From: Chloroflexota bacterium
GTDB lineage: Bacteria; Chloroflexota; Anaerolineae; Anaerolineales; Villigracilaceae
Length of the DNA: 64,000 nucleotides
Assembly: GCA_016235445.1 (NCBI GenBank)
Contig: JACRLB010000021.1
Location: forward strand, 1-64,000
Reading direction: 5' to 3'
Shown: positions 29,837-53,060 of the stretch, piece after piece
Position numbering within the stretch: the first letter of the stretch is position 1
Layout: each line of letters starts with the position of its first letter
Translations under genes and position numbers: made by a program
The notes under the pieces: generated by a model
Databases searched by the model: none
The model's input: the letters and a program-made list of their open reading frames with translations, nothing else
Told to the model about the DNA's origin: nothing

Positions 29837-32800
29837 ATGGAAAATAGCCTTAAATCCATTGCCGGTTTCGAAATTCAAGATACCATTCACGATGCTGTTG
29901 AAGGGGTTATATATAGGGCTGTTGATAAATCGTCAGGCAACCGTGTTTTTATAAAAAAATATTATCCCTCGCTAATATGGTCGGAAGAAGTAATAAATGA
30001 ATTCTTCAACCTGATCAGCTATTTACGTTTCTTCGAGCACGAATACCTCCTGTCCATACTGGATGTTGGCAAGCATGAAAATGCGCCATACGTTGTGTTT
30101 GCAGACGATTCATTCACTCTGTTAAGACATCGCCAGGGTGGGCAGGTCACCCAGAGAGAAACTCTCAATTTTTTATTCAGGGTTGCCGAAGCGCTCGATT
30201 TTCTTCATGCGCAGGAAATCATTCATGGCGGCCTCGATATTAATAATATCGCCCTGGACCCGAATGGGTATCCCCTTCTCTTTGATTTCGGCTTGAGCGG
30301 AGTCTTCAAAAAACTTTTGCTCGAAAACATGGATGACGGTTTTGAAAATCTCTCCATTGCAAGCCTGACATGCGCCTCACCCGAACAGATTTTAGGCCGC
30401 ACACTCACCCGCGCCTCCGATGTCTACACGTTTGGAATTATCGGGTTTCATTACATCTTCGGAAAATTTCCGTTTACCGGAAAATATACGGCCGAAACCG
30501 CGGCAATAATTCTTGAGCGCAATGTCTTGCAAGCCGTAGCTTTACCTGAATCCATATCGTTCGACGTTATCCAATTCCTTCAAAAATGTATTCAAGTGAA
30601 TCCAGAAGAGCGATTTTCAGGCTTTCCGCTCATTCTAAAAACCCTGGAACGGATGAAATCCGGCAATAGGGTTCGTTTTAAATTCGAGAAACGATTCGAA
30701 GTTGAAAAACCCGCCAGAAGCATTCGGGTTTCATTCGTTCCCGTCGGTGTGACCGGACTGATCGCAATCAGTTTGATTGCTATGTTTTATCTATTTATCC
30801 GAAACACCCAGGCATTCCCTCTCTCTATTCGGTCCACTGAAATTACATCGACTTCCACAGAGCCGGCGGCTACACAAACCCAGACCCTTATCCTCGGTGA
30901 AACGCCAGCAGAATCTGCCGCAAGTATACAAAGTTCGCCAACGCCGGTTCAACCGAATATGTACAAACTGGCATTCGAAGGGGAAAAACCTTTAGATGTA
31001 AGCGAAGCCATTTCGCTTGCCAATCTCGGCAACCTTCGAGAAATTTCAAGGCTGGGTTTCGGCAGGCCGGAAGAAGCCGATGTTGCTCCTGATGATGATC
31101 ATATTGCAGTCGCCACTTCGGCGGGCGTTATTATTTTTGAAGGAAATCAACTCCTCAAGTGGATTGACCCGCAGGGCTGGGCCACCAGTGTCCAGTTCTC
31201 CCCGGATGGAGTCACCCTCGCGATAGGGTTGAGGAATGGCGAAATTCAGCTTTGGGATTGGCAAGCCGGAACCAAAACTGCCACCCTGGCTGGTCACACG
31301 AAAAAAATAAACCGCATTCTGTTTTCCCAAAACGGCCTGCTCTATTCTGCCTCCGCTGACCAGAATATTATTGTCTGGAATTTGAATTCAAACCAGGCGA
31401 TTCATCGTATTCCAGCTCATTCCAGGGCCGTGAACGATATCGCGGTAACCAGCGATGCAAGGATTCTCGTCTCCTGTTCAGACGATCAACTCATTCGCGT
31501 TTGGGATCTGGCCTCCGCCAGCAAACTCTACGAACTTAAAAACCCTTATTTTACGGGTTCCATCAAGGCCATTGCCATCTCATCCGACGACGCCTATCTC
31601 GCGGCAGGCGGCGAGTCCGGTTATTTGTATCAATGGAATTTGATCACAACCCAGTTCGGTGCGGATACCAGCCCGCAACGACGAACCGATATTGTCCCTA
31701 TAAAACAAAGGATTTGGAGCCTGGAATATATAAGAAACAACCAGGCATTGCTTGTGGGCGTGGATGATGGAAATGCCATAACATACGATGCCACCCGCCA
31801 GGAATACGGAGGCGTTTCCCTTTCCTTTGAAATCCCCCGTCATTCGCTAAAACTGGTGGAGGTTTTTGGCCCCGAATTTAGTTTTGATTCTTTCTCTGCA
31901 TTCCGCGGAAACAACATAATCTCTGCCAACTGGGATGGGCAAGTCACATTTGAGCAATCCCAATTCGTCAGCGGCATGTACGACCTGCTAGACAGGCTTG
32001 ATTTCTCCCCGGACGGCACAATCCTCGCCGCCGGAGGAAGACGCGGAAGTACACATGTCTGGAATCTGGCAACCAATGAACCGATTTATAAAAACCTGTA
32101 CTTCCTGCCTTTTGGCGATCCCATTTCCCCGGACGGTTCCTCTATTGCCCTGATTGTGCCAAAATCCATACAGACTACCACCGCCGTACTGACCGAGGAA
32201 ATTTATCAAATGAAAATCTTAACCGGCTCCCAGTCTACGAGGGATCTTTCGCAAACCCTTCCTAATGCTAATGTAGGGTATACAAATAATGGAAGCATCT
32301 TCATTGCGGCAAACTTAACAGGCCAAAAAGCCTGGGATTCTTCGAGCGGGAGTGAAACCCGTCTAAATGGATATCCATACACAGGCTGTTGGGTCACTGC
32401 ATCCGCGACCAATATCAAAGACATACTTCAGGTCAACTCCGCGGCGGGTCTGCTCCCGCCAGGGGATGAAGAACATATTAATAGCCTTTGCCCTAAAACC
32501 TATCAACATCGGGGAAGCCATTCCGCTTTCTCGAAAGACTTAACCCTCATGGCCTACCTCGGTTCAAGCGGCCTGCTCGAAGGCTACGATGTAATAAAAA
32601 AATCACCCGCCTGGCCGCCCTACCGATTGGATAATTCCGAGGCAGTGACCGTGCTCGCTGTTTCACCGGAAGGCTCCATGGTCGCCGTAGGAGATACGTC
32701 AGGATTTATCACATTCTTCAATGGCAAAACGGGAGAATTTATCAGCAAAATCGTCGGCAACTTTGGAACACTGTACGCAATCGAATTTTCAGATGACGGA

Positions 32801-32866
32801 AAATTGATATCCACCGCAGGCTCAGACGGAATCGCGCGGATATTTGGCATTGCCGAGATCAAATAA
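29837..32866 (+). CDS. Receptor with degenerate Ser/Thr kinase domain, TM helix and WD40 region (1)
   Basis: 1009 residues. A kinase-fold domain (about 10-275) keeps the ATP lysine in RVFIKKY (K40) and DFG (150-152), but the catalytic loop reads IIHGGLDINNI: HRD has become HGG at 130-132 and the following Lys is Asp. The glycine loop is also lost (IHDAVEGV). It is therefore likely a pseudokinase. One transmembrane helix lies at about 299-321, then a Ser/Thr/Gln linker, then about 620 residues of WD40-type repeats (for example HIAVATSAGVIIFEG and VWDLASASKLYEL), enough for two seven-bladed propellers outside the membrane. First gene of the island. Confidence 0.85.
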   Translation: MENSLKSIAGFEIQDTIHDAVEGVIYRAVDKSSGNRVFIKKYYPSLIWSEEVINEFFNLISYLRFFEHEYLLSILDVGKHENAPYVVFADDSFTLLRHRQGGQVTQRETLNFLFRVAEALDFLHAQEIIHGGLDINNIALDPNGYPLLFDFGLSGVFKKLLLENMDDGFENLSIASLTCASPEQILGRTLTRASDVYTFGIIGFHYIFGKFPFTGKYTAETAAIILERNVLQAVALPESISFDVIQFLQKCIQVNPEERFSGFPLILKTLERMKSGNRVRFKFEKRFEVEKPARSIRVSFVPVGVTGLIAISLIAMFYLFIRNTQAFPLSIRSTEITSTSTEPAATQTQTLILGETPAESAASIQSSPTPVQPNMYKLAFEGEKPLDVSEAISLANLGNLREISRLGFGRPEEADVAPDDDHIAVATSAGVIIFEGNQLLKWIDPQGWATSVQFSPDGVTLAIGLRNGEIQLWDWQAGTKTATLAGHTKKINRILFSQNGLLYSASADQNIIVWNLNSNQAIHRIPAHSRAVNDIAVTSDARILVSCSDDQLIRVWDLASASKLYELKNPYFTGSIKAIAISSDDAYLAAGGESGYLYQWNLITTQFGADTSPQRRTDIVPIKQRIWSLEYIRNNQALLVGVDDGNAITYDATRQEYGGVSLSFEIPRHSLKLVEVFGPEFSFDSFSAFRGNNIISANWDGQVTFEQSQFVSGMYDLLDRLDFSPDGTILAAGGRRGSTHVWNLATNEPIYKNLYFLPFGDPISPDGSSIALIVPKSIQTTTAVLTEEIYQMKILTGSQSTRDLSQTLPNANVGYTNNGSIFIAANLTGQKAWDSSSGSETRLNGYPYTGCWVTASATNIKDILQVNSAAGLLPPGDEEHINSLCPKTYQHRGSHSAFSKDLTLMAYLGSSGLLEGYDVIKKSPAWPPYRLDNSEAVTVLAVSPEGSMVAVGDTSGFITFFNGKTGEFISKIVGNFGTLYAIEFSDDGKLISTAGSDGIARIFGIAEIK

Positions 32867-32881
32867 GAAAACCCACCATCT

Positions 32882-35860
32882 ATGAATAACCTTGTCGGCG
32901 CCACCATCGAACATTATCGAATCCTCGTAAAAGTGCGGGAAACGCCCACGCGGGTTTTATACAAGGCCTTCAACACGAAATCCCAAAATTATACAGCTGT
33001 GGAATTCGTAAAAATATCGCGGGGAGACTCCTCCGAGTTACTGCAAGTAATCAACGAACAGGTACACAAAAATGCCGCACTAACTCATCCCAATATAGCC
33101 GCCGTAACCGATACAGGGATATATGACGGCTCGATCTATATCGTTTACAACTTTTTACCCACCCATCCATTACGCCGTTTTTTTAATCGAATCTATTCCT
33201 GGCAGGAAACCTCCCGTGATTTGCTCATGGTTGCCCATGCCATTGCATACGCCCATGAAAGGGAAATTTTTCACGGCGATCTTCACCCTTCCAGCATTCT
33301 TTTGGATGAAAAAAGAAACCCAATCCTGTTCGATTTCGGCTTTGAACGCATCATTACAGACTATGTACTTGCCCGTTCGCCCGGCGCATGGATCAATCGT
33401 TGGGGATACGAATATCGCCCGCCCGAATATCTGAACGGCGCCCCATCGGATGCGCGTTGCGATATTTATGCCATGGGCATGATGTTGCACGAATGGCTGA
33501 TCGGAAACATTGCGCTTCTGGACTCAACCATAATTGGCACATTGCGAATGAGAGCTACCACCCCGGACATGGTCAAATCAAAACATCCCATTGCGCCCGC
33601 CGTTCAAAGTCTGATCAAAAAATGTACAGCTCCCAGCCCGGAAGACCGCTACCCATCCATGCAGGAAGTCTATATTGTCCTGGCCCGCGGCGCATTGGAT
33701 ATGACCATTACACAAAAAATGGTGCGAAAGCCGTTGGATATCCCCGCACAGCGCTTCAACTCAAGACAGTTGCTTGGCTGGATACGAAACAGCGCAATTA
33801 TGGCCATTGGCGCAATCGTCATTTTCAGCATATTCAACCTGCTTCGTACAAATTTCATTGCGCTTCCACCCACGGCAAACCCGATCTCCATTAATACGCA
33901 GGCAAGACCAACCTCCACCCAGGTCAGAGCCGCGTCTTCTCCCACTCAAGAAACATCTCTCACCCAAACAACAACCACATCTCCGCTTATCTTTCCAGTA
34001 TTTCAAGCCACCTCCATAGCTTCTGCTGTCAGTCAAACCATCGAAGCAGGCAATATCAGCAATTTGGTCATGCTAAGCCAGTGGGGCATTGGGGATATCA
34101 ATCGCACGGCTTCTTCCCCGGATGGAAATCGCATGGCAGTCGCATCATCCATCGGCATATTTATTTTCGATGCAAACAGCCTCCAACTTGAAAAATTCAT
34201 TGATACGCGTTCCTGGGTAACCTCCATTGATTATTCGTCAGACGGACAGCTTCTCGTTTCTGGCGATCGGGATGGATTAATTCAACTTTGGGATACCCAA
34301 ACCTGGGAGGAGTCTGAAGCGCCATACAGCGGCCACACGAAATCAATTCTCGATCTGGCCTTTTCACCGGATGGAAAAAAGCTGGCATCCATATCCCTCG
34401 ATAACCGGCTTATCCAATGGAAAGTAAATTCAACAGACACCGTAAAAGCCACCCAGGCCGAATTGATCGGCGGCGCAACTGCGGTCGCATATTCTGCGGA
34501 TAATACTCGCATTATCACAGGCGGAAATGATTTTCAAATCAACATCTGGGATACCGAAACATTGAACATCCTGCAAACAACCGCTTTTTCATCCAGGATT
34601 GTGGATATTGCAAGCATCAACAACTCAAATCGTTTTGTCATTGGAGGTAATGACCAAAAAGTAGCGCTTTTGGATATTACCGGCCAGGGGAATATCACCC
34701 AGGTGGGCGCCCTGCAATATTCTTTAACCAGCATTGCGGTTTCATCCGACGCAACTTTGATCGCCGCCGGCGATATTAATGGAGGAATCACCGTATGGGA
34801 AAACAGCGCCGACAGCGGAAGATTCAATGAAGTATGGAAGAATAGAAACTACGTTATCGGAGACCCTTCCACGCTTAACAAGGCTGGTACCTCTCATAGC
34901 ATTTTATTTGCCCCCGACGGCGCTTCGATCTATTCCGGGTTGCATAATGGCTTCCTGCGAAACCTGGATGCCAGAACAGGCGCAGAACTTCAACAAAATC
35001 TTCTGTTAAACGCCCATGCAAAAAAACTGGCGATTTCTCCAGATGGAAAGTATCTCCTCTCCCAACAGGAGGCCTCCCTGCTCACCGTTTGGGATATCGC
35101 GAACGGAATACCTTTGTACCAGCTTCGCGGTGAACTAAAAGATGGGTACCCATTTTCGCAGGATGGCCAAATGTTCGCGGTTGATTCAAAAGGTTCCAGC
35201 CCTGCCGTGGTAAAGGTATATAACCCGGCAAATGGAATTGAAATCTATACACTCACCAATTATGAAGGCTTGGAAACCCTGCAATTCATAAATGATGACG
35301 AACTGCTTGTCACCGTGTATGACAAATTCGCGCACGTATGGTCCATGTCCAGCGGGCAGGAATTGAAAACAAGCCGCCGCTATGAAGGCTCGGGTTGTTC
35401 CACGCTTCATGATCTAAATGAAGACCCTGTCGTTTCCATTACTACTTACCATCATGTGGTGACAAACAACCTAAACAGGCCCGGATTGTGCGCATTCGAA
35501 ACGCTGGATTGGAAGGTCGATATCAGCGAGGAGAACGAACTGATCGCCTTCGGGGGCAACAGCAAACTTTCCATCGTATCCAATATTCAGGGCGGTAACA
35601 ACACCGTCCAGGATATGCGCGATGTCAACCAGAAAAATATCGTCAGCGTGGCAATCAGCCCAAACGGCGGACTCGTTGCGGCCGCCTTCGACGATCACAC
35701 CCTCCACGTTTGGGATATCGCCACGCGGGAAATATTGATCAACATATATGGTCACAATAATTCAATCACCGACCTCCGCTTCACGCCGGACAGCAAGTTC
35801 CTGATCTCCACTTCCATGGATGGCACCATCCGCATATGGGGCATCCCTTATGGCCCGTAA
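32882..35860 (+). CDS. Receptor with degenerate Ser/Thr kinase domain, TM helix and WD40 region (2)
   Basis: 992 residues, paralogous to its neighbours. Kinase-like residues about 10-275: the VAIK lysine position is Glu41 (TAVEFVK), the glycine loop is absent (VKVRETPTRV), and the catalytic loop is FHGDLHPSSIL, with Asp kept but Arg replaced by Gly and Lys by His. DFG is intact (151-153). Catalysis is doubtful, though a nearby Lys44 might substitute. A transmembrane helix at about 310-330 (AIMAIGAIVIFSIFNLL) leads to a long WD40 region ending TSMDGTIRIWGIPYGP. It begins 15 bases after the previous stop, without a good Shine-Dalgarno sequence. Confidence 0.85.
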   Translation: MNNLVGATIEHYRILVKVRETPTRVLYKAFNTKSQNYTAVEFVKISRGDSSELLQVINEQVHKNAALTHPNIAAVTDTGIYDGSIYIVYNFLPTHPLRRFFNRIYSWQETSRDLLMVAHAIAYAHEREIFHGDLHPSSILLDEKRNPILFDFGFERIITDYVLARSPGAWINRWGYEYRPPEYLNGAPSDARCDIYAMGMMLHEWLIGNIALLDSTIIGTLRMRATTPDMVKSKHPIAPAVQSLIKKCTAPSPEDRYPSMQEVYIVLARGALDMTITQKMVRKPLDIPAQRFNSRQLLGWIRNSAIMAIGAIVIFSIFNLLRTNFIALPPTANPISINTQARPTSTQVRAASSPTQETSLTQTTTTSPLIFPVFQATSIASAVSQTIEAGNISNLVMLSQWGIGDINRTASSPDGNRMAVASSIGIFIFDANSLQLEKFIDTRSWVTSIDYSSDGQLLVSGDRDGLIQLWDTQTWEESEAPYSGHTKSILDLAFSPDGKKLASISLDNRLIQWKVNSTDTVKATQAELIGGATAVAYSADNTRIITGGNDFQINIWDTETLNILQTTAFSSRIVDIASINNSNRFVIGGNDQKVALLDITGQGNITQVGALQYSLTSIAVSSDATLIAAGDINGGITVWENSADSGRFNEVWKNRNYVIGDPSTLNKAGTSHSILFAPDGASIYSGLHNGFLRNLDARTGAELQQNLLLNAHAKKLAISPDGKYLLSQQEASLLTVWDIANGIPLYQLRGELKDGYPFSQDGQMFAVDSKGSSPAVVKVYNPANGIEIYTLTNYEGLETLQFINDDELLVTVYDKFAHVWSMSSGQELKTSRRYEGSGCSTLHDLNEDPVVSITTYHHVVTNNLNRPGLCAFETLDWKVDISEENELIAFGGNSKLSIVSNIQGGNNTVQDMRDVNQKNIVSVAISPNGGLVAAAFDDHTLHVWDIATREILINIYGHNNSITDLRFTPDSKFLISTSMDGTIRIWGIPYGP

Positions 35861-35872: not shown

Positions 35873-38842
35873 ATGACCGATATTTTTGGAAAAAAGCTCG
35901 GAGAGTACATCTTATTAGAACAACTTGGCGAAGGCGGCATGGCCAAGGTGTACAACGCATTGGATTCCCGCGTGGAAAGAAATGTAGCCATCAAGGTCAT
36001 CCTGCCCAGCAAGCGCACTTCCAATGTTTTTCTGCAACAGTTCGAACGCGAAGCAAAAGTGCTTGCAAACCTAATGCATACAAATATCGTCAAAGTGTTG
36101 AATTATGGGATTCAAGACGGACAGCCATACCTGGTAATGGAATATGTCTCAGGAGGCACACTGAAAGAAGCCATGAACCAGAAGATTCCCTGGCAAACCG
36201 CCGCGGCGATCCTGGCCCCCATTGCCCGCGCGCTGGATTACGTCCACCGCCAGCAAATCGTTCATCGGGATGTCAAACCGTCCAATATTTTGATTCAGGA
36301 TGATTTTCGCCCGATGCTCTCCGATTTTGGCATCTTGAAAATGTTCGAAGGAAAAAACGAGAAGGTGGATTCAGCCATCGGCGCGGGGGTTGGCACGCCT
36401 GAATATATGCCGCCCGAACAGGGCCTGGGGAAAGATGTGGATTTCCGGGCAGATATCTACTCCCTGGGGCTGGTATTCTACGAAATGATCACCGGTCAAA
36501 AACCATATACCGCCGATACGCCCATGGCTATCATCGTCAAACATGTTACAGACGACCTGCCTCTGCCAACCCACATAGACAAAAACATACCAAAATTCGT
36601 GGAACGTGTCATTCTTCGCGCTGTGCAAAAGGAACCCCAAAACCGCTACCTCAGCATGGGACATTTTGCCGACGCGCTCGAACTCATCTCGCTTGGCGAT
36701 AAGGCGTCCCCTCAAAAGATAACCAGAATTTCGAGGGAAAAGGAGAAACGTCAACGATCCTTTTCGATCTACTCGTTATCGATTCTTCTGGTCTTACTGG
36801 CGCTCGGAACGTCTTTGATAACCTATAACTTTATTAAAACAACCCAACAGGCAGTCGCTCCGTTTTCGGCCCCCATCCTGCAAACTGAAAAAACACCGGA
36901 ACCTAACCCGAGTCCGGGAATCCCACCAACTCAAGCGGCCGCTTCAGCTTCATTACCCACAGCAATTCCGGCAGCGGGAAGCGCCTCCGGAATCACCTTG
37001 ATGGGAACGCCAATTTCCGGCCGGCAGAATCCCCAATTCAAAGAAATTGCGCGCTGGGGAATTGGAGGGGTAAATGTAGCCAGGTGGTCGCCGGATGGTA
37101 AAAGGATAGCGCTTGGCGCCACCAGCGGTATCTTTTTGTACGATTTTCAATCGAAGGAATTGATTCGATTTATTGATACCGGTTTCAACGTTCTGGAAAT
37201 GACCTTCAACCCGGCCGGGGATGAGATCATCGCCGGCTCGCCCACTGGGCTGGTATATGCGTGGAACACCTCTTCAGGGAGCCTGATTCGAGAATATCCA
37301 TATAAACGTCCCGCCACCGAAACAATATCCGACAACCTGGAAGTGACTGCCATAACATTTTCATCCAATGGAAAAAATATAGCCATCGGTTACAAAAATG
37401 GAGCCATTAACTACTTTCCCGCCGATCAAAATACCGCTCTCATGTCCGTTGTTAATTACCCCCTGATCGAAGACCTTGCCATTAGCGCCGACAATAGATT
37501 CATCTATGTCAGCAATGGCGACCGGGATATTTACATCTGGGATATTCAAACCGGGAAGAAAGACGCCTCCCGGCTTTCCAACCCCACACCCATCAACAAC
37601 CTCAGCATATCAAACGACCGTCAAATGTTATTGGCCGGCGGGGTGGGAAGTTCCGTTTATTTATGGGACCTTTCCGAAAACGCCCAAGTCAATAGTTTTC
37701 CCAACCCGGGCAATCACATTGCAGATTTCGATTTCTCCGCCGACAATCGATTCGTAACCATTGGCCTGGCAAGCGGCATCATCAATGTATTTGAAACCCC
37801 CAGCCTGGAAGAACATTCGATCACCCTCGTACCCATGCTCACATTTCCAGCATTCAACGATCCAATCCTCGGAATCACATTCTCTCCCGAAGAGCCTCTC
37901 ATCGCCTCTGTGAATCATCAAGAAGGACTCAAAGTGTGGAATGCCCAAAACGGTCAAAAACTGGATTCGCCCGGAAAAAGCATGCGCAGTATCGACGAAA
38001 TTCACCTCTCCCAGGATGGCTTGTGGCTGGCCACCGCACACCAGGACGGCCTTCTGCGTGTCTGGAATGTCAATGCTGGAATCGAAGCCTATCCCCCGTT
38101 CGAAGGGTCGTTATCCAGAGGCGCGCCTTTCTCACCGGACAATCGCTACCTGGCCTACATTTACTCGCCCGGCAAATTCAAGGAGGACCTTGTCCGTATT
38201 TTGGAATTAGAAACGGGAAACATCGTCGCAGAATTGCCTGGTTACAAACCAAAGGCATTTATTCAATTTACCGAAGACACCAAATTAATGATCGTAGGAG
38301 ATGCCTATTCCGCCAATTTCTGGGATGTCTCCACCTGGGAATTGCTGGATACCCATGGCGGCCCAACCGCCGGCTGCGGCCAATACACCACACCACAGAA
38401 CAGATTAATAGCCATCATTTCGAACGCGGGATTGCTCTTCCCACAATATGATGAAAAAGTCGAACTAATGTGCGCCAGCAAACCGCGCGGCGCGCTTCAC
38501 ATGTATTATTTTTACGAACAGCACAAAATGCTTCTCGTACAAAGCGACGGCGGCCTATGGGTGTGGGGCTTCAACCCAGTCGAACTGAGCCGCAAAGAAT
38601 CATCAGACACCCCCTACCCATTAAGCCGTGAAATCTTCCTCGACGGCGACCAGACAAGCGGCTGGTACGCCTACAAAGACCTGCCCCAGGGAACATTGCA
38701 CATAGAGAACATCAATGGCAGCAACGGCGAAATCATAGACCAACAAAACGACTACCAATACCGGGTCTCTCTACTGCCCGGCCAAAACCTGATGGCGCTA
38801 GGCTCCCGCTTTGGCTCCATTCACATCTGGACCATGCCATAA
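35873..38842 (+). CDS. Receptor Ser/Thr kinase with extracytoplasmic WD40 region (3), catalytic
   Basis: 989 residues. All kinase motifs are canonical: glycine loop LGEGGMAKVY (18-27), VAIK with K41, helix-C Glu60, VHRDVKPSNIL (HRD 131-133), DFG 151-153 and GTPEYMPPEQ. It should phosphorylate Ser/Thr on cytoplasmic substrates, possibly also its degenerate paralogues. One transmembrane helix (about 298-318, ILLVLLALGTSLITY) is followed by a Pro/Ala linker and a roughly 600-residue WD40 region, likely two propellers, as the outside sensor. The start is 12 bases after the preceding stop with AAAGGTT upstream. Confidence 0.92.
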   Translation: MTDIFGKKLGEYILLEQLGEGGMAKVYNALDSRVERNVAIKVILPSKRTSNVFLQQFEREAKVLANLMHTNIVKVLNYGIQDGQPYLVMEYVSGGTLKEAMNQKIPWQTAAAILAPIARALDYVHRQQIVHRDVKPSNILIQDDFRPMLSDFGILKMFEGKNEKVDSAIGAGVGTPEYMPPEQGLGKDVDFRADIYSLGLVFYEMITGQKPYTADTPMAIIVKHVTDDLPLPTHIDKNIPKFVERVILRAVQKEPQNRYLSMGHFADALELISLGDKASPQKITRISREKEKRQRSFSIYSLSILLVLLALGTSLITYNFIKTTQQAVAPFSAPILQTEKTPEPNPSPGIPPTQAAASASLPTAIPAAGSASGITLMGTPISGRQNPQFKEIARWGIGGVNVARWSPDGKRIALGATSGIFLYDFQSKELIRFIDTGFNVLEMTFNPAGDEIIAGSPTGLVYAWNTSSGSLIREYPYKRPATETISDNLEVTAITFSSNGKNIAIGYKNGAINYFPADQNTALMSVVNYPLIEDLAISADNRFIYVSNGDRDIYIWDIQTGKKDASRLSNPTPINNLSISNDRQMLLAGGVGSSVYLWDLSENAQVNSFPNPGNHIADFDFSADNRFVTIGLASGIINVFETPSLEEHSITLVPMLTFPAFNDPILGITFSPEEPLIASVNHQEGLKVWNAQNGQKLDSPGKSMRSIDEIHLSQDGLWLATAHQDGLLRVWNVNAGIEAYPPFEGSLSRGAPFSPDNRYLAYIYSPGKFKEDLVRILELETGNIVAELPGYKPKAFIQFTEDTKLMIVGDAYSANFWDVSTWELLDTHGGPTAGCGQYTTPQNRLIAIISNAGLLFPQYDEKVELMCASKPRGALHMYYFYEQHKMLLVQSDGGLWVWGFNPVELSRKESSDTPYPLSREIFLDGDQTSGWYAYKDLPQGTLHIENINGSNGEIIDQQNDYQYRVSLLPGQNLMALGSRFGSIHIWTMP

Positions 38843-38853: not shown

Positions 38854-41784
38854 ATGAGAGACTCTTTGATTGGCACCCGAATCAACCGTTACGAAATCCG
38901 CGAATCGGTTCACAAATCAGATCTGGTCGGCGTCTACAAAGCATACGACGCAAAACTCGAACGATTTGTATTGCTCAAAACCATCCTCCACTCCGACGAG
39001 TATTCCAAAGAAGCAGTTGATTTTTTCCTCGCCGAATCGAAAACCCTCGCGAAATTAACACACCCCAACATCGCCAAAGTGCTGGACTTCGGCTACGAAG
39101 AAGGAAATCTATACCTCATCAACGAATACGTGACAGGGAATTCCCTCTCCGACTTGATGAATCGCCCCATGCCCTGGCAAAACGCCATCAACATCCTTCT
39201 GCCATTAACCGACGCCTTGATCTACGCCCATTCCCGAGGCATCATCCACCGCGACCTGAAACCCGACAACATCATCATCAACACCGACGACCAGCCCATC
39301 CTCAGCGACTTCAGCCTCATGCGCATCATCGAAGAAGAAGAAACACGGGATATGACCGGAACAAACATCGGCCTGGGATCGCCCGCTTATATATCCCCCG
39401 AACAAGGCAAAGGCCTCACCGCCGACTTCCGATCCGATATTTATTCGCTGGGCGTTATTTTCTTCGAAATGGTCACAGGAAAAAAATTATTCTACGCCAC
39501 CAACAGCATGGAAATCGTCATCCAACACATCATGTCCGACCCTCCCAAACCGCGCAGCATCATCCCCACTCTGCCAAAAGCGGTCGAAGACATCATCCTC
39601 AACACACTTTCAAAAGATCGCGAAAAACGCTACCCAACCATGGAAGAATTTTCCAATGCCCTGAAAACCGTCATCGAAAACACCAACAAGGAAAAAAATC
39701 AAACCGCGCGCCGCCCTCGCATCCTTTGGACCGTTTCGATCACAGGCATCGCGCTGATCCTTCTGGCCGCAGGCTTGATCTTAAGAAACCGCGCAGAGAC
39801 ATCTCCCTCCGCCTCTGCGACTCGCCAGTCAATCGAAACCTCCATAACGACTCCCCGCCTCCTCCCCTCCCCGACGCCTGATTCAGCTTCCGAACCTTCA
39901 TCCACGCTGACAACATCCAACAGCGGGCCATTTGCTGGGTACCAACTGCCCACCCTGCCCCTGCTCCCAGGAACCCACATTCCGGAAAGCAAGCAGGCCA
40001 TAGACCCAAACAACATCCTCACGATCCAGGAACTTGCCCGCTGGGGAAAACCAGACATTCGTCAACTCTCGTTAATCAACAACGATCAAGTTCTATTGGC
40101 GGCCACGAGCGCCGGCATCTACTACTTCGACCCCCAGAACCTATCCGCCCGCGCCTTCTTCGATACTGACGGAGCAGTCACAGTATTCAAAATTTCAAAA
40201 GACGGCGAATGGGTGGCAACCGGCGACGAAAGTGGAACAGTAGCCGTTTGGAACATCCTGGATGGAAAACAGTTGTACCAATACAAACACGGCGCAAAAA
40301 TCCTATCGCTCGATCTCTCGCCCGATAAATCCAAACTCGTCTATAGCGACAGCAATAAAAATATCCACCTCTGGAATTTTCAACAAAATCAGGCGCCTTA
40401 TTCTTTTGAAAAAAGGCTGACCGCAAGCGCCAATAAAGTCCTGTTCATAGATGAGGGCGATACGGTTGCGAGCGGCGGCGACAACTTCCAAATCATCCTC
40501 TGGGATGTTGACAGCGGCAAACTAAAGGAACAATTTGCCGCCGCGCAGAAAATTAACGACATGGCCATATCCTCCAATGGCCGCTACCTCGCCCTCGCCC
40601 TCAACGAGGCACGCATTCAGGTCTGGGACCTATTCACAAAGTCAGCAGTTAACATCACAGACCTGCAAATCATAAAAGCCTTTACCTTCATCACCTTCCT
40701 GCCAAACGACACCACTCTGCTCACCGGCTCGGCGGATGGATACATTCGCATTTGGAATGCCGCCTCCGGGTTTAAAATCTGGGAAACTGCCTCCGCTTAT
40801 CAAAGTGACAACCCAGGCACATTCAACCCGGTAAAAACGGTCGCGATCTCCAGCACCGGCTCGACATTTGTAGCAGGATTTGAAAACGGCTGGGTTGAAA
40901 CCTGGGATTTCACCTCGCAAACCCGAACAACAGCCAAAGATTTACGCTCCGACCCAATTAACCGCCTGACCATCTCTCCGGACGATAAATTGCTTGCTTT
41001 TCAAGGCGGCCAATCATTTGTCGAAGTGCTGGCTCTTGAAGAAATTTCCAATGGCGTTCGGGTGAATGGTACATTACCCAGGGGAAATCCCATCTCACCT
41101 GACAGCCGTATGATCGTTATACAAACAGATACCCTGAAACTTTATTCCCTTTCCGCCCAGCAACTACAGCCGCAATTTACATTACATGATTCTTCAATTA
41201 ACAGATCCATAAATTTCTCGCCAGACAACCTCATGCTCACCGCTTCTGCAAATGGCGCCTTGAGATACTGGTCCATTGCCTCCGGCCTGGAATTGAAATC
41301 ATCCTCCCCGCAAAGGGAAGGTAATTGTTTCGTCATTTATCGCCGCGATAACAGCCTTATTGCCGCAGGCGCTGAAAACGGCGCGATCTACACCAATGAC
41401 AATCTGCAATATTTTTGCCAAATCACACGAAACCCCCGCGCTATTTCCGAAGACTTCCTTCCTGATGGAAGTATAATAGCCATGTCCCTGCAAAATCAGG
41501 GCATAGAAATTTGGGATAATCGGAAAGGGAGCCAGAAAGTTGAAAAAACACTTCAAACCCCTGGCGATGTCCTTGATGTGGCAATTTCCAGGGATGGCAG
41601 GCTCCTGGCAACAGCCTCGAACGGCGGTGTCATAGAAATCTACAACCTCGAAACCATGGACCTTATAAAAACCATACCTTTGCAAACTGGCCCTGTTCAA
41701 CAGGTTCTTTTTTCAAACAACGGCAAATATCTAATTTCAGGGCTATCTGATGGCACCCTGCGATTTTTCGGAATATACCCATAA
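38854..41784 (+). CDS. Receptor Ser/Thr kinase with extracytoplasmic WD40 region (4), DFS variant
   Basis: 976 residues. The catalytic loop IHRDLKPDNIII (HRD 132-134) is intact and K42 (VLLKTIL) fits the ATP lysine, but DFG reads DFS (152-154) and the glycine loop has no GxG (SVHKSDLVGVY). Metal-binding Asp is kept, so weak activity is possible. GSPAYISPEQ is normal. A transmembrane helix at about 291-311 (VSITGIALILLAAGLIL) precedes a Ser/Thr-rich linker and WD40 repeats such as VWNILDGKQLYQYK and RVFSNNGKYLISGLSDG-like blades. AAAGGAG precedes the ATG 11 bases after the previous stop. Confidence 0.88.
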   Translation: MRDSLIGTRINRYEIRESVHKSDLVGVYKAYDAKLERFVLLKTILHSDEYSKEAVDFFLAESKTLAKLTHPNIAKVLDFGYEEGNLYLINEYVTGNSLSDLMNRPMPWQNAINILLPLTDALIYAHSRGIIHRDLKPDNIIINTDDQPILSDFSLMRIIEEEETRDMTGTNIGLGSPAYISPEQGKGLTADFRSDIYSLGVIFFEMVTGKKLFYATNSMEIVIQHIMSDPPKPRSIIPTLPKAVEDIILNTLSKDREKRYPTMEEFSNALKTVIENTNKEKNQTARRPRILWTVSITGIALILLAAGLILRNRAETSPSASATRQSIETSITTPRLLPSPTPDSASEPSSTLTTSNSGPFAGYQLPTLPLLPGTHIPESKQAIDPNNILTIQELARWGKPDIRQLSLINNDQVLLAATSAGIYYFDPQNLSARAFFDTDGAVTVFKISKDGEWVATGDESGTVAVWNILDGKQLYQYKHGAKILSLDLSPDKSKLVYSDSNKNIHLWNFQQNQAPYSFEKRLTASANKVLFIDEGDTVASGGDNFQIILWDVDSGKLKEQFAAAQKINDMAISSNGRYLALALNEARIQVWDLFTKSAVNITDLQIIKAFTFITFLPNDTTLLTGSADGYIRIWNAASGFKIWETASAYQSDNPGTFNPVKTVAISSTGSTFVAGFENGWVETWDFTSQTRTTAKDLRSDPINRLTISPDDKLLAFQGGQSFVEVLALEEISNGVRVNGTLPRGNPISPDSRMIVIQTDTLKLYSLSAQQLQPQFTLHDSSINRSINFSPDNLMLTASANGALRYWSIASGLELKSSSPQREGNCFVIYRRDNSLIAAGAENGAIYTNDNLQYFCQITRNPRAISEDFLPDGSIIAMSLQNQGIEIWDNRKGSQKVEKTLQTPGDVLDVAISRDGRLLATASNGGVIEIYNLETMDLIKTIPLQTGPVQQVLFSNNGKYLISGLSDGTLRFFGIYP

Positions 41785-41795: not shown

Positions 41796-43874
41796 ATGAA
41801 TGACCTAACCGGCACCATTATTGAACGCTATAAAATCGTCAGGGAATTGGGCCGCGGGGGCATGGCAGTGGTGTATCACGCCACAGACACCATGCTCGAC
41901 CGCAATGTCGCCATCAAAATGATTCTTTCCGATAATACAAATAGGGAAAAATCGGAAAAATTGTTGAAGCGCTTTAACCGCGAAGCCAAAACCCTCGCAA
42001 GCCTATCCCACCCCAACATTGTTAAAGTCCTGGATTACGGCGAATATGAGCGCGCGCCATACCTCGTCATGGAATTTATCGCAGGCGGCGCGTTGAAAGC
42101 CAAAATGACGCGGCCCATTCCCTACGCCGAGGCCGCCGCCCTGCTCCTGCCGGTAGCGCGCGCCCTTCAACATGCCCATCTGCAAAAAATCGTCCACCGT
42201 GATGTTAAGCCCGAGAATATCCTCATCAATGACTCCGATCAACCAATGCTCTCAGACTTCGGAATTCTAAAACTGGTGGACATGGAAGAGAGTCATGGCC
42301 TCACCGGCACAGGCAAGGTGATCGGCACGCCTGCTTATATGTCGCCGGAACAAATCCGTGGACGGGAAGTTGACGGCCGCGCCGATATATACTCGCTGGG
42401 CATCGTATTCTTCGAAATGGTGGCGGGTCGAAAACCCTATAATGCCAATACCCCCATCGAGTTATCCATGCAACATTTGCACGACCCCATTCCGAAGGCC
42501 AAACAATTTGTGCGCGACCTGCCAGCCGAAGTAGATCAGATTATTGCAAAAGCCATTGCCAAAAACCCCGAAGACCGCTACCCCACCATGGCCATCTTTG
42601 CGCAAGCGCTCGAAAAACTGAGCGGCACCACCGCGCGAACCACTACCGCCGAACGACGCGCCATGAAAGCGGCGGAAGAAAAACAGCAGGCTGAAAAACA
42701 AAAAGAAACAGAAAAGGCGGCAAATAAACAAGGTGGATCTTTCAAGCCGAGGTATGTGTATCTCGTTGGCGGCGCAATTGCGGCGTTTGTAATCGGCATC
42801 ATCATTTTCAGACAAATCAGCCCTTCCCTGACCCCGCCGTCCGAACCAACAAGTACATCTGCCTCCACACTTTTGAACTCAACGCCTGCACAGTCCGCGT
42901 CAACGAACTCAACAAGCCAGGCTCAAATTAATGAGACAAATACTCCAAACTTTACGCCTCCCACGTCCACGCCGAATTCAATCTCTGAGCGGACCTTGCA
43001 ATCACAAAATATTTCAAAAGTCGTCGAAATAGGACGGATGGACAAAATTTCCGTTATCCGAATGGATTGGATCGAGAATGGAAATTGGCTTATCAACGCC
43101 GGCTCAGACACGGTTTTATTCATTGATTCGAAAACGGAGGCAGTTACAAAAGTCGGCCTGGATGGAGGGATTCCTATTTCCTTATCGGTCACCAACGACC
43201 GTGTGTACGTTCTGTTGAATGACGGCATCAAGGTCATTGATATTGAAACCTTCAAGGTTATCAAAACTATTTCACCCATTAGCGGTGGAGCAATTAGCAT
43301 AGCCGCCTCACCGGACGGAAACTATCTGGCGCTGGGAATTTCCGATAACAAGACTCAACTGCTCAACGCTGAGAATGGAAGTGTTGTCCGAAACCTGAAA
43401 AGCAACTATGGCGGCTGGGCTGTAGGGTTTTCCCCCGACTCTCAAAACATCATAAGCGGAACCTCACAAGGCATCTTGAAATGGGAAACGACCACCGGCC
43501 TATGGCTCCCCACCTTTGGCGGACAGGAAAAAACCGTCAAAAGCCTGGCATTTTCACATGATGGCAAAATCGTCGCGGGCGGCGGCGATGGGTTTATATT
43601 CTTTTGGAACATGGAAACCGGAGAACTAATGAACCAGGTGGATGACGGCGACTTTGGCGTCATACACAGCCTCGATTTCTCCCCCGACGATGCCCTCGTG
43701 GTATCTGGTTCGGATGATGGCATGGTTCGCATCTGGGATGTATTTTCCGCCTCGATGCTAAGAGAACTCACCGGTCACACCAGCAAGGTCTTCGGAGTCT
43801 GCTTCTCGCCGGACGGTCAAAACCTTGCCTCAGGGGCAAACGAAGGAAGCATTCTTATCTGGGGCCTGCCGTAG
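41796..43874 (+). CDS. Receptor Ser/Thr kinase with one WD40 propeller (5), catalytic
   Basis: 692 residues, the shortest of the five. The kinase is canonical: LGRGGMAVVY, K41 in VAIKMIL, VHRDVKPENIL (HRD 134-136), DFG 154-156, GTPAYMSPEQ. A basic/acidic segment rich in Lys, Gln and Glu (about 283-310) forms a juxtamembrane coiled region, then a transmembrane helix (about 315-340, VGGAIAAFVIGIIIF), a Ser/Thr linker and about 290 residues of WD40 repeats, enough for one propeller. The last blades GHTSKVFGVCFSPDGQNLASG are near-consensus WD40. AAAGGG lies before the ATG. Confidence 0.93.
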   Translation: MNDLTGTIIERYKIVRELGRGGMAVVYHATDTMLDRNVAIKMILSDNTNREKSEKLLKRFNREAKTLASLSHPNIVKVLDYGEYERAPYLVMEFIAGGALKAKMTRPIPYAEAAALLLPVARALQHAHLQKIVHRDVKPENILINDSDQPMLSDFGILKLVDMEESHGLTGTGKVIGTPAYMSPEQIRGREVDGRADIYSLGIVFFEMVAGRKPYNANTPIELSMQHLHDPIPKAKQFVRDLPAEVDQIIAKAIAKNPEDRYPTMAIFAQALEKLSGTTARTTTAERRAMKAAEEKQQAEKQKETEKAANKQGGSFKPRYVYLVGGAIAAFVIGIIIFRQISPSLTPPSEPTSTSASTLLNSTPAQSASTNSTSQAQINETNTPNFTPPTSTPNSISERTLQSQNISKVVEIGRMDKISVIRMDWIENGNWLINAGSDTVLFIDSKTEAVTKVGLDGGIPISLSVTNDRVYVLLNDGIKVIDIETFKVIKTISPISGGAISIAASPDGNYLALGISDNKTQLLNAENGSVVRNLKSNYGGWAVGFSPDSQNIISGTSQGILKWETTTGLWLPTFGGQEKTVKSLAFSHDGKIVAGGGDGFIFFWNMETGELMNQVDDGDFGVIHSLDFSPDDALVVSGSDDGMVRIWDVFSASMLRELTGHTSKVFGVCFSPDGQNLASGANEGSILIWGLP

Positions 43875-43902: not shown

Positions 43903-45858
43903 ATGAAATTCAATCGCTTAACAGCCTCTCTTAAAATTGCGATCTTGTTTGCTTTGATGATCATCACCCAGGCAAACGGCCTGGCGCAATCTGCTACCGA
44001 GCTTGTGGCACACTACGTGGAGGTTACGCCGGTTGGGGATGGAATCACATACAAAATCAACCTGTATTTCTCCACTGTGGACCCTTCCGGCGCTCCCATG
44101 AAAGACATCCTTGCCGAGTCTTTAAACCTCCTGGAAGATTCTCAAAGGGTTGAAATCAAAGATATTGGCCCGGCGAGCGAGATACCCACTAACCTGGTTT
44201 TGGTAATAGATACCAGCGGAACCATGTTCGGGGCAAGAATTACAGACGCGCAGGCCGCCGGCGTCAATCTTGTAACGGCGCTCATGAAACCAGGCTCTCA
44301 GGTTGCGGTGATCACTTTCGATAATGAAATCAGGACTCAGATTAACTTCACCAGCGATCAAAAAACCATCACTGACGGAATCCAACGGATCAGTGCAACA
44401 CGCGGGGCGGGGGCCTGTCTCTATGATGCGATCCATGCGGCCGTTCAAGCCGTTTCCACGCTTCCTGTCGGCAACCGGGCCGTGATCCTGCTTACGGACA
44501 GCAGGGACGAGACCCCAAGCCTTGCCATTTGCAGTTCGCAAAACATCAACAACGTAATCAAACTCGCATCGGAGGGTAATACGCGAACTCCCATCCACAC
44601 CATTGGGTTGGGAACCGATATTGACAACGAACTTCTTAGAAATATCGCAGATCAGACCGGCGGATATTATCTCTTCTCGCCTGATTCACCGCAATTGACG
44701 AACACAATACAAAAATTAATCGATCGGTTGAATGCGCAATATATCCTTACCTATTTATCCACAGCCTCTCCAGGGGCACATACCCTTACGCTCAGCGTCA
44801 ACCAAACCGGCCCAGTGATAAAAGCCACCCGAAATTTTTCGCTCTCTCCCCTGCCTGCACATATTACCTTCACAACTCCGCTGGAAGGCGAATTGGTTGG
44901 CGATCTCTTGAAGATTGCGGTCTCTCTTTCCACGCAGGGCCAAACCACAATTGCGCGGGTTGCATTTGTGATGAACGGTGTCGAAGCGGGGTCGGACGAC
45001 ACGAAACCTTATGAACTCGAATTGGATGCCAGCCCGTACCCCACAGGCGCTCTGACAGTTTCTGCTGTGGCTTACGATGCAACTAACCTGGAAGTAGCTC
45101 GCGCCAACTTGAACCTCGTCCATGCCCAATCGGCCGAAGCGCCCACCTCGCCTGCGGAGGTTGCAACTGCGCCAGGTACGGCAACCTCAGCCAATTCCGA
45201 AGGCAACAACTTGATGGTTATTACAGCGGTTGTTTTGAGCGGGATCAGTATCTTTGCGATTGTATTTCTCCTATTCTTGCTGTTGCGCCAGCAACAAAAA
45301 GACAAGGGTTGGAACCTGGAAAATATGGTGGATGACGAAAGAACCATACCGGCCATGCAGAGGAGGGCTATTATCAGCCAGGCGGATGATCATAGAAAAG
45401 CGACCAGCCCGGAGTTTGAGTCTGATGCGTTGGGTGTACTGACAATCGAGGCAAGCGATGATTCGTCCCTCATCGATCATCGTTTTGAAATCACAAAGTC
45501 ATTGGTCACGCTGGGCCGCAGCGCCGATAATGATGTTAATTTTCCAGGCGATAAACCCGTCTCCCGTCATCATGCTGAAATCTATCAGATCAGCGGGAAG
45601 CTTTACCTGAGGGAGGTGGAAACCGCCGGGGCATCGGGTGCAATGCCTCCCAAATATGGAACCTTTGTCAACCAGAAAGCTCTGGAGGCCGACCCCGTTC
45701 TATTGAAAACCGGCGATGAAATTCAGCTTGGGAAACGAGTGCGTTTGAGATTTGAATCCTTCGTGCGCGAGATTAATGCCGACTCGCCGACCAGCGACGA
45801 TTTCGACAACGATATGACGATGGCGGACGATATTGATAAAACGGCGCTTCAGGATTAA
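43903..45858 (+). CDS. Membrane-tethered VWA domain with cytoplasmic FHA domain
   Basis: 651 residues. Signal sequence 1-28 (IAILFALMIITQANGLAQ), VWA domain about 95-270 with MIDAS motif LVIDTSGTMFG (103-107) and later ILLTDSRDE, a beta-rich region, transmembrane helix about 440-461, and a cytoplasmic tail with FHA domain about 525-625 (LGRSADNDVNFPG, SRHHAEIY, GTFVNQ). FHA domains bind phosphothreonine. Two Thr-containing acidic motifs in the tail, DDERTIPAM and NDMTMADDIDKT, are plausible targets of the neighbouring kinases. The protein would couple an extracytoplasmic metal-dependent binding event to phospho-reading. ATG 43903 with CAGGAG upstream is preferred to a longer frame. Confidence 0.88.
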   Translation: MKFNRLTASLKIAILFALMIITQANGLAQSATELVAHYVEVTPVGDGITYKINLYFSTVDPSGAPMKDILAESLNLLEDSQRVEIKDIGPASEIPTNLVLVIDTSGTMFGARITDAQAAGVNLVTALMKPGSQVAVITFDNEIRTQINFTSDQKTITDGIQRISATRGAGACLYDAIHAAVQAVSTLPVGNRAVILLTDSRDETPSLAICSSQNINNVIKLASEGNTRTPIHTIGLGTDIDNELLRNIADQTGGYYLFSPDSPQLTNTIQKLIDRLNAQYILTYLSTASPGAHTLTLSVNQTGPVIKATRNFSLSPLPAHITFTTPLEGELVGDLLKIAVSLSTQGQTTIARVAFVMNGVEAGSDDTKPYELELDASPYPTGALTVSAVAYDATNLEVARANLNLVHAQSAEAPTSPAEVATAPGTATSANSEGNNLMVITAVVLSGISIFAIVFLLFLLLRQQQKDKGWNLENMVDDERTIPAMQRRAIISQADDHRKATSPEFESDALGVLTIEASDDSSLIDHRFEITKSLVTLGRSADNDVNFPGDKPVSRHHAEIYQISGKLYLREVETAGASGAMPPKYGTFVNQKALEADPVLLKTGDEIQLGKRVRLRFESFVREINADSPTSDDFDNDMTMADDIDKTALQD

Positions 45859-45891: not shown

Positions 45892-46707
45892 ATGAATTTC
45901 CACCCCGAAAGCGTTCGATTTGAATTCGGCGCCGCGACCGACTCAGGGCGTAAGCGCGGAACTGAACCAAATCAGGATACGGTGGAAGTGGTTCTGCCAA
46001 AAACAACACGAGACTGGCATCCGCCGCTGTTGCTGGTAGCGGATGGATTGGGAAAGTATTCCGGCGGGGCGTTTGCCAGTGAGTTGGTTATCCAAACCTT
46101 TAAACAGGAGTTTCAACTCGCCCAGCATCCGTCAGATTACCCAACTCTGATGGAAAATTGCCTACAGGCCGCGCATCAGGCAATACGCTTAAACAGTGCG
46201 AAGAACCCTGAACTCGCGTACATGGGAAGTACTCTGGTGGCGATAACGTTGGAGGCAAAACAGCTTCATTTGCTAAATGTTGGCGATAGCCGCGCCTATC
46301 TTGTTCGTGATAAAAACATCCTGCAAATCAGTGAGGATCAGAGTTGGGTGGCATCGCAAGTGCGGGCTGGCGTGCTGACTCAAGACGAGGCCCGGCTACA
46401 CCCAGGCCGCAATCGCCTGACGATGGCGATAACCGCAAAAAGGACCGAGGTCGTACCATACATATCCACATTAAGCCTCGGCCCGGGAGATATCGTTCTG
46501 CTTTGTTCCGATGGGTTGTGGGGTGTGGTTCCTGAAACCCTTATCCGTGCGGCGGCCATGGAATTGCCGCCTCCAGTCGCTGTGGAAAAATTGATTGCGC
46601 TGGCAAATGGCGTCGGAAGCCCTGATAATATTTCTGTTGTTATCGCGCGTCAGCTTGATTTCCCACGCAGGGCCATGAATGTTGACCCGCAAGATACCGC
46701 CGCATAA
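45892..46707 (+). CDS. PP2C-family Ser/Thr phosphatase
   Basis: 271 residues, cytoplasmic PPM/PP2C domain. Metal and catalytic motifs are NQDTV (28-32), LLLVADGLGKYSGG (D51), NVGDSRAYLV, ILLCSDGLWGVV and SPDNISVVIA. In the second motif the usual GMGGH is GLGKY, a modest variation near the active site. It should remove phosphates placed by the kinases of the same run. GAGGAA is 2-3 bases from the ATG. It lies between the FHA-VWA protein and the soluble kinase. Confidence 0.92.
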   Translation: MNFHPESVRFEFGAATDSGRKRGTEPNQDTVEVVLPKTTRDWHPPLLLVADGLGKYSGGAFASELVIQTFKQEFQLAQHPSDYPTLMENCLQAAHQAIRLNSAKNPELAYMGSTLVAITLEAKQLHLLNVGDSRAYLVRDKNILQISEDQSWVASQVRAGVLTQDEARLHPGRNRLTMAITAKRTEVVPYISTLSLGPGDIVLLCSDGLWGVVPETLIRAAAMELPPPVAVEKLIALANGVGSPDNISVVIARQLDFPRRAMNVDPQDTAA

Positions 46708-46763
46708 TCCAATTGGCTCTGCCTGTATTTTCGGGTATCTATTATTATTTTTGGAGGATTTTC

Positions 46764-47987: not shown

Positions 47988-48785
47988 ATGACTAATTACT
48001 TAATCAACGAAATTTCCCCTTATCTCCTTCAACACGCCCACAACCCCGTGAATTGGTTCCCCTGGGGCGAGGAAGCGCTTGCCAAAGCAAAAGCCGAAGA
48101 CAAGCCCATCTTTCTCAGCATAGGCTACGCGGCCTGTCATTGGTGCCATGTCATGGCGCACGAATCCTTTGAGGATGAAGAAACCGCGAAGTTCATGAAC
48201 GACCACTTCGTCAACATCAAAGTGGATCGCGAAGAACGTCCCGACATCGACGGGATTTACATGCAAGCGGTCATCGCCATGACAGGCTCAGGCGGCTGGC
48301 CCATGTCCGTTTTTCTCACGCCAAAGTTGAAACCATTTTACGCAGGCACATACTTTCCGCCTGTGCGCCGCTTCAACATGCCAGCCTTCAAGGATATACT
48401 GAACGGCCTCGCCAATGCCTGGAAAAACGACAGAAGTGAAGTCGAAAAAACGGGCATACAAGTCGGCGATCATTTGCAGACGCAAGTCAAAAATCAAAGC
48501 AAAGATTTTCTTGCGCCTGAACATCTCGATGCGATAGCAAAAGCCATGCAGGAATCCTACGATTGGAACTATGGCGGCTGGGGTGATGCGCCTAAATTTC
48601 CGCAGGCAATGGCGCTTGAATTTTTACTTCATCATTCCATTGCAGGCAAAAACGATGAGTACCTCAAACTCATCGATCATTGCCTGCAAACCATGTCCCG
48701 CGGCGGCATGTACGATGTGGTCGGCGGCGGCTTCGCGCGTTACAGCACCGACCATCTTTGGCGCGTGCCGCATTACGAGAACTAG
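47988..48785 (+). pseudogene. DUF255 thioredoxin-domain protein, 5' part, interrupted
   Basis: 265 residues of a family usually over 600 long (YyaL/spermatogenesis-associated 20-like). The N-terminal thioredoxin-like domain is complete: [36 protein letters not shown] with its Cxx[11 protein letters not shown] and [11 protein letters not shown]. The start of the following glucosidase-like domain ends at [15 protein letters not shown] and then TAG. In homologues this motif continues EKMLYDNA, so the gene is cut exactly in a conserved word. The downstream sequence is the recombinase of an integrated element. The 3' part is not in the window. An expressed thioredoxin domain alone is possible. Confidence 0.8.
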
Positions 48786-51984: not shown

Positions 51985-52005
51985 AATCAAAAGAGAGTAA
52001 TCCAA

Positions 52006-53059: not shown

Positions 53060-53060
53060 G

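Follow-up and report, generated by a model that had tools for sequence, protein, structure and literature searches.

Conserved WD40 receptor pseudokinases at the head of a five-receptor kinase cassette in Chloroflexota

The first two of five tandem WD40 receptors encoded by a Chloroflexota bacterium, here referred to as R1 and R2, are old pseudokinases and not products of recent decay. These broken-looking receptors probably have a real job, because the same losses have been kept in distant relatives. We consider it rather probable that R1 and R2 are anciently duplicated receptors, kept by selection as the non-catalytic subunits in a phosphosignalling module that joins five WD40 receptors to FHA, PP2C and VWA partners.

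The gene run and its orthologues

The window, as we call the whole 64,000-nucleotide stretch that was analysed, belongs to a genome of 4.13 Mb in 55 contigs (G000) and contains a same-strand run of eight genes in the order R1, R2, R3, R4, R5, VWA-FHA, PP2C and kinase-FHA; the coordinates of these genes and of their residues are all on the + strand. R1 (29837..32866, 1009 aa) and R2 (32882..35860, 992 aa) stand first, and each combines a pseudokinase domain with a hydrophobic segment (residues 296-314 and 303-321, respectively), a linker and a WD40 domain; the span 29837-35860 originally given for the pair is exact. R3 (35873..38842, 989 aa) has a canonical kinase, a hydrophobic segment and a WD40 domain. 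R4 (38854..41784, 976 aa) has the same architecture with Lys, Glu, HRD and Asn intact, DFS and no Gly loop, and R5 (41796..43874, 692 aa) is again canonical, with a hydrophobic segment and a shorter WD40 domain. The run continues with a protein of VWA, Ig-like (Big_7) and FHA domains (43903..45858, counted from the ATG at 43903; the listed ORF starts with TTG at 43825), a PP2C-type phosphatase (45892..46707) and K6 (46713..47948), a canonical kinase-FHA protein in which a hydropathy scan found no hydrophobic segment. Assignments were based on ORFs and Pfam matches, together with hydropathy for R1-R5 and K6 and a motif table for R3-R5 and K6. The original prediction had placed two pseudokinase-like receptors upstream of two canonical paralogues. 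The position upstream of intact paralogues holds, and R3 and R5 are canonical; the paralogous receptors downstream, however, number three, one of them the DFS-type R4, and a kinase-FHA gene follows.

All five receptors are built alike: an N-terminal kinase is followed, near residue 300, by a single hydrophobic segment, then by a linker rich in Pro and Thr and by WD40 repeats, which cover ~600 aa in R1-R4 and ~300 aa in R5. A simple hydropathy threshold missed the hydrophobic segment in R1 of two orthologous genomes (G113 and G107). The kinase domains of R1 and R2 match PF00069 with 87.8 and 90.5 bits (cut-off 31.7), and among the best 25 Pfam rows for the window receptors there were WD40 families and no PASTA domain. 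Intergenic gaps from R1 to R5 are 15, 12, 11 and 11 nt. A promoter scan was uninformative (17 promoter-like sites vs 21.4, sd 4.7, in shuffles), and terminator-like sites numbered 33 vs 24.6 (sd 4.3) in shuffles, both counts being of consensus matches only. Beyond the run, positions 47988-50433 hold a DUF255/thioredoxin-type gene (265 aa) whose 3' end overlaps a serine recombinase on the opposite strand, followed at 51352-58740 by ParA, a protein with DnaA_N and ORFs that match no Pfam family; the recombinase, ParA and DnaA_N region suggests a mobile element adjoining the cassette.

Single-sequence searches for R1 covered 150 genomes from the family and two genera sampled with 18 and 57 genomes; profile searches extended to 400 genomes from the order and to 147 from a second family (f13). 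Strong matches were recovered from five genomes, G000, G113, G107, G017 and G351, with a spread of 1/57 in the window's genus, 3/18 in genus g17 and 1/147 in family f13. Within the order, four of the 400 genomes contained R1, and full-length R4 profile matches came from the same four (G107, G000, G017 and G351). When 396 genomes from the class were searched with an R2 profile, G000 and G017 alone had strong matches, the other three genomes being absent from the match list of that draw. Weaker R1-profile matches in G330, G392 and G288 were rejected on the ordinary kinase motifs in their translations; G392 is the other f13 match under 1e-42.

R1-R5 occur in this order in all five genomes, four besides the window's own, one of which (G351) comes from another family of the order. 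VWA and PP2C genes accompany the receptors in 5/5 and a kinase-FHA gene in 4/5 (for G113 the data cover the VWA gene up to its FHA part). In G113, G107 and G017 the VWA, PP2C and kinase-FHA genes are downstream of the receptors; in G351 PP2C and VWA-FHA are upstream, and no kinase-FHA gene was seen beside that cassette. Identity to the farthest orthologue is only 33% for R1 and 39% for R2, and open frames of ~1000 aa are found in four of the five R1 and in every R2. In G017, R1 has a frame shift between kinase domain and hydrophobic segment (L036:13989-14154), which may be a sequencing error, decay or recoding; other genomes carry intact copies. Since only five orthologous sets are known, the word invariant as used below rests on few lineages.

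In a further genome, G077, an R4 cut at a contig end was found with an R5 orthologue. A search of G077 for R1-R3 by tblastn and the R1 profile (28 candidates scored, 23 matches) gave no orthologue of R1, R2 or R3 among the 23. One match at the end of contig C502, at ~51% to both R3 and R5 and with unrelated genes upstream, was left uncounted.

Kinase motifs, phylogeny and selection

Forty-three kinase domains were aligned in the motif table. Alignment to the cassette kinases bore out the degenerate residues of the original prediction, namely HGG for HRD and Asp at the following Lys in R1, and Glu at the β3 Lys with HGDLH in the catalytic loop in R2; the motif table likewise agreed that both keep DFG and lack the Gly loop. 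Beyond these changes, the αC Glu is also lost in R1 (Leu) and R2 (Gln), as is the loop Asn of R2. Homologues with intact motifs would point to recent decay, and an intact set is absent from all four further orthologues found for R1 and for R2: the loss of the R1 catalytic Asp and the R2 β3 Glu are kept in 5/5 genomes.

In R1, the β3 Lys (Lys40, 29954..29956), the catalytic-loop Asn137 and Asp150 of the DFG (30284..30286) are kept in all five orthologues, and the DFG motif reads DHG or DYG in the four outside the window. Leu59 (30011..30013) stands at the αC Glu position (L, L, L, L, Q across the five orthologues) and His130-Gly131-Gly132 (30224..30232) replaces HRD, with G, S, S, N, N in place of the catalytic Asp. 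Window R1 has Asp at the K+2 position. The catalytic Asp, αC Glu, HRD Arg, K+2 Lys and Gly loop are absent from 5/5 R1, and with the HRD Asp gone throughout, R1 would by its motifs count as a pseudokinase.

R2 would count as a pseudokinase by a different loss, that of the β3 Lys in 5/5, replaced by Glu41 (33002..33004) and by Glu in every orthologue. The αC Glu position holds Gln60 (33059..33061; Q, Q, Q, Q, I) and the catalytic-loop Asn position Ser138 (33293..33295; S in 4/5); both αC Glu and HRD Arg are absent from all five. His131-Gly132-Asp133 (33272..33280) retains the Asp in the window only, where the four orthologues have F, F, A and F. The catalytic loop of window R2 reads HGDLHPSS, with the K+2 Lys changed to His, DFG kept and the Gly loop absent; DFG is kept in 4/5 R2 and reads GFE in G351. 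Since window R2 retains the HRD Asp, residual activity by an unusual route is conceivable. A WNK-like shifted Lys was sought by eye, and K/R was found in β2 of 5/5 R2, which is uninformative because R4 and R5 orthologues have it too. Near the membrane, R2 orthologues share a conserved stretch, ARGALDxxIT, whose one invariant Thr is a possible phospho-site; no conserved juxtamembrane Thr was found in the R1 orthologues.

In all ten R1 and R2 sequences the HRD Arg is Gly, the APE-Glu, αF-Asp and αI Arg are kept, and activation segments are present in both receptors. R3 and R5 have canonical motifs in 5/5 genomes, and K6 is canonical in the window. R4 has Ser154 (39313..39315) in place of the DFG Gly, and both DFS and the absence of the Gly loop recur in all five genomes. 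With intact catalytic residues beside these two fixed changes and a middling dN/dS, R4 may serve as a third kinase whose activity is weak or conditional.

A profile search of the window's genome outside the cassette found Lys, HRD-Asp and DFG-Asp kept in 12 of 14 kinase domains, so that the motif losses of R1 and R2 are not due to chance. Thirteen of the 14 were included in the motif table, the low-scoring first domain of L097 was read by eye, and two weak Pkinase places (L099 and L100) lie outside the count. L097 (G000:C44:72000-79800) is a 2275-aa frame in which a degenerate kinase (HRN...NFD) is followed by a more intact one (HQD...DFG), a tandem pseudokinase-kinase with a JAK-like layout. 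L098 (G000:C28:13036-13752), in an open frame of 660 aa, is a pseudokinase with β3 Lys changed to Thr, HRD Asp to Asn and DFG Asp to Gly.

In the phylogenetic analysis, each receptor formed its own orthologue clade with bootstrap 100, and R1 and R2 were sister clades (99/96). A first tree had joined long branches and was rebuilt without G351_X, ownL097 and ownL098; all 25 receptors then fell on one side of a 99/98 branch. With the long rows included, the supports for the R1-R2 pairing and for this branch were 98/96 and 98/98. The sisterhood of R1 and R2 is supported by the HG common to both, and is likely rather than sure because both have long branches. As the losses are shared, they predate the parting of the five lineages or spread as a set by transfer, and the patchy distribution fits either.

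Ratios of dN/dS were calculated by the Nei-Gojobori method, with the G017 R1 ectodomain effectively excluded (kinase piece only). Kinase domains compared between G113 and G107 gave 0.18 for R1, 0.22 for R2, 0.13 for R4, 0.055 for R3 and 0.048 for R5, with 0.10-0.21 for the WD40 parts. Between G113 and G017 the values were 0.18, 0.20, 0.15, 0.08 and 0.08 in the same order, and between the window and G113 they were 0.23 for R2, 0.16 for R4 and 0.06 for R3, with saturation for R1 and R5. The kinase domains of R1 and R2 are thus under purifying selection, weaker than that on the live kinases R3 and R5 (~0.18-0.23 vs ~0.05-0.08). The intermediate values of R4 agree with its half-degenerate motifs.

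Predicted structure and known systems

AlphaFold2 models, built with 20 cassette sequences, gave a confident kinase fold for both R1 (pLDDT 85.8, pTM 0.87) and R2 (pLDDT 86.7, pTM 0.86). The best PDB matches of the models in Foldseek were PknB, PknA and S. aureus PknB/Stk1 (E ~1e-18 to 1e-17). By sequence, the nearest solved relatives of R2 are S. aureus PknB, StkP and PknB, and those of R1 are S. aureus PknB, PknB and StkP mixed with eukaryotic kinases. With a Pkinase match over the Pfam cut-off and a bilobal predicted fold, both belong with the Hanks-type (eSTK) kinases.

PASTA receptor kinases have a layout of kinase, single TM and ectodomain. R1 and R2 resemble PknB, PrkC and StkP in this layout, and these kinases are among their closest solved relatives; however, R1 and R2 carry WD40 in place of PASTA and lack catalytic residues, and they score 81.7 and 93.4 against the NCBIfam PASTA-kinase model (cut-off 450).

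The available text of a 2025 review describes 42 bacterial STK families, five wholly and two partly pseudokinase, most bacterial pseudokinases being without known function; MviN, EssB/YukC, SidJ and SelO are among those described (PMC12599244). The original remark that regulatory pseudokinases are rare in bacterial descriptions is therefore half true, and the main text of that review gave no match for Chloroflex, WD40 or propeller. None of the family-defining features compared here, as given in its available sections, fits R1 or R2 in full (PMC12599244). ActPs1 has all three catalytic residues substituted, of which R1 and window R2 each keep at least one. ActPs2 combines β3 Lys to Arg, HRD Asp to Asn and a deleted DFG, where R1 keeps the Lys, R2 has Glu, and DFG is present. 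The GLW family has GLW for HRD and a bulky β3 residue, and R1 and R2 read HGx. The DYD family, with β3 Lys to Arg, no αC Glu and DYD, shares the missing αC Glu, but β3 is Lys in R1 and Glu in R2, and DYD is absent from both. CP1 and DLHK have no transmembrane region, CP1 being linked to COG3899, whereas R1 and R2 have a hydrophobic segment and a WD40 fusion (all definitions from PMC12599244).

Closest in setting is MviN (ActPs3) of Mycobacterium tuberculosis, likewise a membrane-linked Hanks-type pseudokinase, whose partners are an active kinase of the PknB type and an FHA protein; according to section 8 of the review, MviN is phosphorylated by PknB and recruits the FHA domain of FhaA (PMC12599244). 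Unlike R1 and R2, MviN is a transmembrane peptidoglycan-synthesis protein, described there as having all three motifs degraded and the activation loop deleted (PMC12599244). R1 keeps Lys40 and Asp150, R2 keeps DFG in 4/5, and the two, as WD40 receptors, share a gene run with live paralogues.

EssB/YukC of type VIIb secretion is similar to R1 and R2 in being transmembrane with a cytoplasmic pseudokinase domain, and its role is given as non-catalytic in section 4 of the review (PMC12599244). In contrast to EssB/YukC, the nearest solved sequences and folds of R1 and R2 are ordinary kinases led by PknB/PknA/PrkC types, and EssB/YukC belongs to a type VIIb locus with EssC and WXG100, whereas G000 has no EssC-like match. 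Two of the six cassettes do adjoin EssC/WXG100 loci: that of G351 lies beside a type VII secretion-like locus with an FtsK/SpoIIIE ATPase of 1499 aa, WXG100 proteins and an FHA protein, and in G077 the cut R4 and the R5 are immediately followed by an EssC-like gene and by another that matches WXG100 and a hydrolase weakly. EssC-like genes are present in 41 of 400 genomes of the order. A link through such a locus in the window's own genome is rejected, and what these neighbours imply for the window is only suggestive.

We also scanned 33 of 46 listed EssC places, chosen for contig room and not including G351. At least one kinase or pseudokinase domain occurred in 29 of the 33 (L130-L161, L105), a count made without matched control regions; for comparison, the window's genome has 22 Pkinase places in 4.1 Mb. 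A pseudokinase in frames of 357-408 aa accompanies the EssC-like ATPase at 18 of these 33 places (L130-L134, L136, L137, L139-L148, L152), besides G351 (L065:12566-13639), where it has a C-terminal hydrophobic segment. It keeps the DFG Asp in 18/18 and the β3 Lys in 17/17 aligned, has HLC or similar for HRD and has lost the loop Asn, and its nearest PDB sequences are ordinary kinases. This protein could be a Chloroflexota analogue of EssB/YukC.

Judged by titles and abstract starts, the open-access papers covered by our searches listed no described WD40 receptor pseudokinase of Chloroflexota; in the part available, a paper on Planctomycetota kinases mentions WD40 (PMC11032199). Bacterial pseudokinases have been described before, and the R1-R5 arrangement looks new as a variant.

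Possible roles of R1 and R2

In the reading that we favour, one PknB-like kinase-TM-WD40 ancestor would have given rise to the five-receptor module by tandem duplication. The WD40 domains, presumably outside the cell, would sense or assemble, and R3 and R5, perhaps with R4, would phosphorylate. R1 and R2 would transfer no phosphate, R1 because it has no catalytic base and R2 because the charge is reversed at the phosphate-anchoring Lys. As co-receptors, their folded cytoplasmic domains would be phosphorylated by, or tune, R3 and R5 and hand the signal to the VWA-FHA protein and K6-FHA, with PP2C as off-switch. We infer the membrane orientation, co-assembly, absence of activity and phosphate flow. 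A non-catalytic receptor subunit is the simplest role in view of a run that also encodes live kinases, one phosphatase and a pair of FHA proteins, and regulation of the active paralogues by R1 and R2 would be plausible. Points that count against this reading include G077, which has R4 and R5 without R1-R3 having been found (at a contig end), and the dN/dS of R1 and R2, which is above that of the live kinases.

The subunit role could take two forms, a phospho-acceptor scaffold for the FHA proteins, comparable to MviN-FhaA as outlined in the review (PMC12599244), or an allosteric partner. The scaffold form would rest on R2 only, whose juxtamembrane stretch with the invariant Thr speaks for it and has no conserved counterpart in R1.

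HER3 and other eukaryotic receptor pseudokinases are dead receptors beside live paralogous receptors. An arrangement like that of HER3, in which the kinase domains of R1 and R2 dock on R3 and R5 and switch on the heterodimer in a ligand-driven manner through WD40, is possible but tentative. Live and dead paralogues stand side by side in 5/5 genomes, and R1 keeps Lys, Asn and DFG-Asp, so a nucleotide might bind and hold a closed shape. The likeness has its limits, R1 and R2 being Ser/Thr-type bacterial kinases with WD40, and their dimer putative. We take R10, L33 and D76, in PknB numbering mapped onto the alignment, to be the residues of the PknB back-to-back dimer. All three are kept in R4 (5/5) and R5 (4/5, with K for R in one). 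D76, the one residue that favours such docking, is kept in 5/5 R1, but L33 is Ser in 4/4 readable R1 and R10 is not Arg; R2 has S/T/T/V/L at L33, D76 in 3/5 and R10 in 0/5, and R3 is also without most of these residues. The one well-known bacterial activating interface is thus otherwise not kept in R1-R3, which may tell mildly against plain back-to-back allosteric pairing of R1 and R2. Plant and animal receptor pseudokinases with partners are known, as the accessible parts of two papers indicate (PMC11259431, PMC10523662), and a further review appears to concern eukaryotic receptor pseudokinases (PMC13259870).

It is unlikely that only the WD40 parts of R1 and R2 matter, with the kinase fold serving as no more than an inert stalk near the membrane. 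The kinase-domain dN/dS, about equal to that of the WD40 parts, would fit a stalk, yet site-specific residues are retained (Lys40, Asn137 and Asp150 in R1, Glu41 in R2, and the APE-Glu) and the juxtamembrane motif of R2 is conserved. We regard as improbable that R1 and/or R2 are active atypical enzymes, either slow kinases or enzymes that use ATP in another way, for instance to transfer AMP or a glutamyl group like SelO and SidJ. Section 4 of the review documents pseudokinases that have other activities (PMC12599244), all five R1 keep the β3 Lys, the loop Asn and the DFG Asp, and window R2 retains the HRD Asp and DFG; however, the R1 loop lacks an Asp at a position that drifts (G, S, S, N, N), while in R2 the phosphate anchor is Glu in 5/5 and the HRD Asp is not conserved. 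Very improbable is recent or ongoing decay of two tandem-array members into functionless relics: a kinase-domain dN/dS ~2 to 4.5 times that of R3/R5 and the frameshifted G017 R1 would fit it, but orthologue motifs and dN/dS largely refute a recent origin, with the same losses in five genomes of two families, long open frames in 4/5 R1 and 5/5 R2, fold-keeping residues retained, and dN/dS well under 1 and near that of the receptors' own WD40 parts where both are computable.

In a wider version of the subunit reading, the two dead and three live WD40 receptors, born by duplication, would form one obligate complex in control of a system for export or contact at the cell envelope, type VII secretion perhaps in genomes that have it. 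Such a complex would be the bacterial equivalent of signalling through heteromeric receptor pseudokinases, but we regard this version as doubtful. With live paralogues, a phosphatase and phospho-readers in fixed order, the cassette makes it directly testable whether receptor pseudokinases regulate their paralogues.
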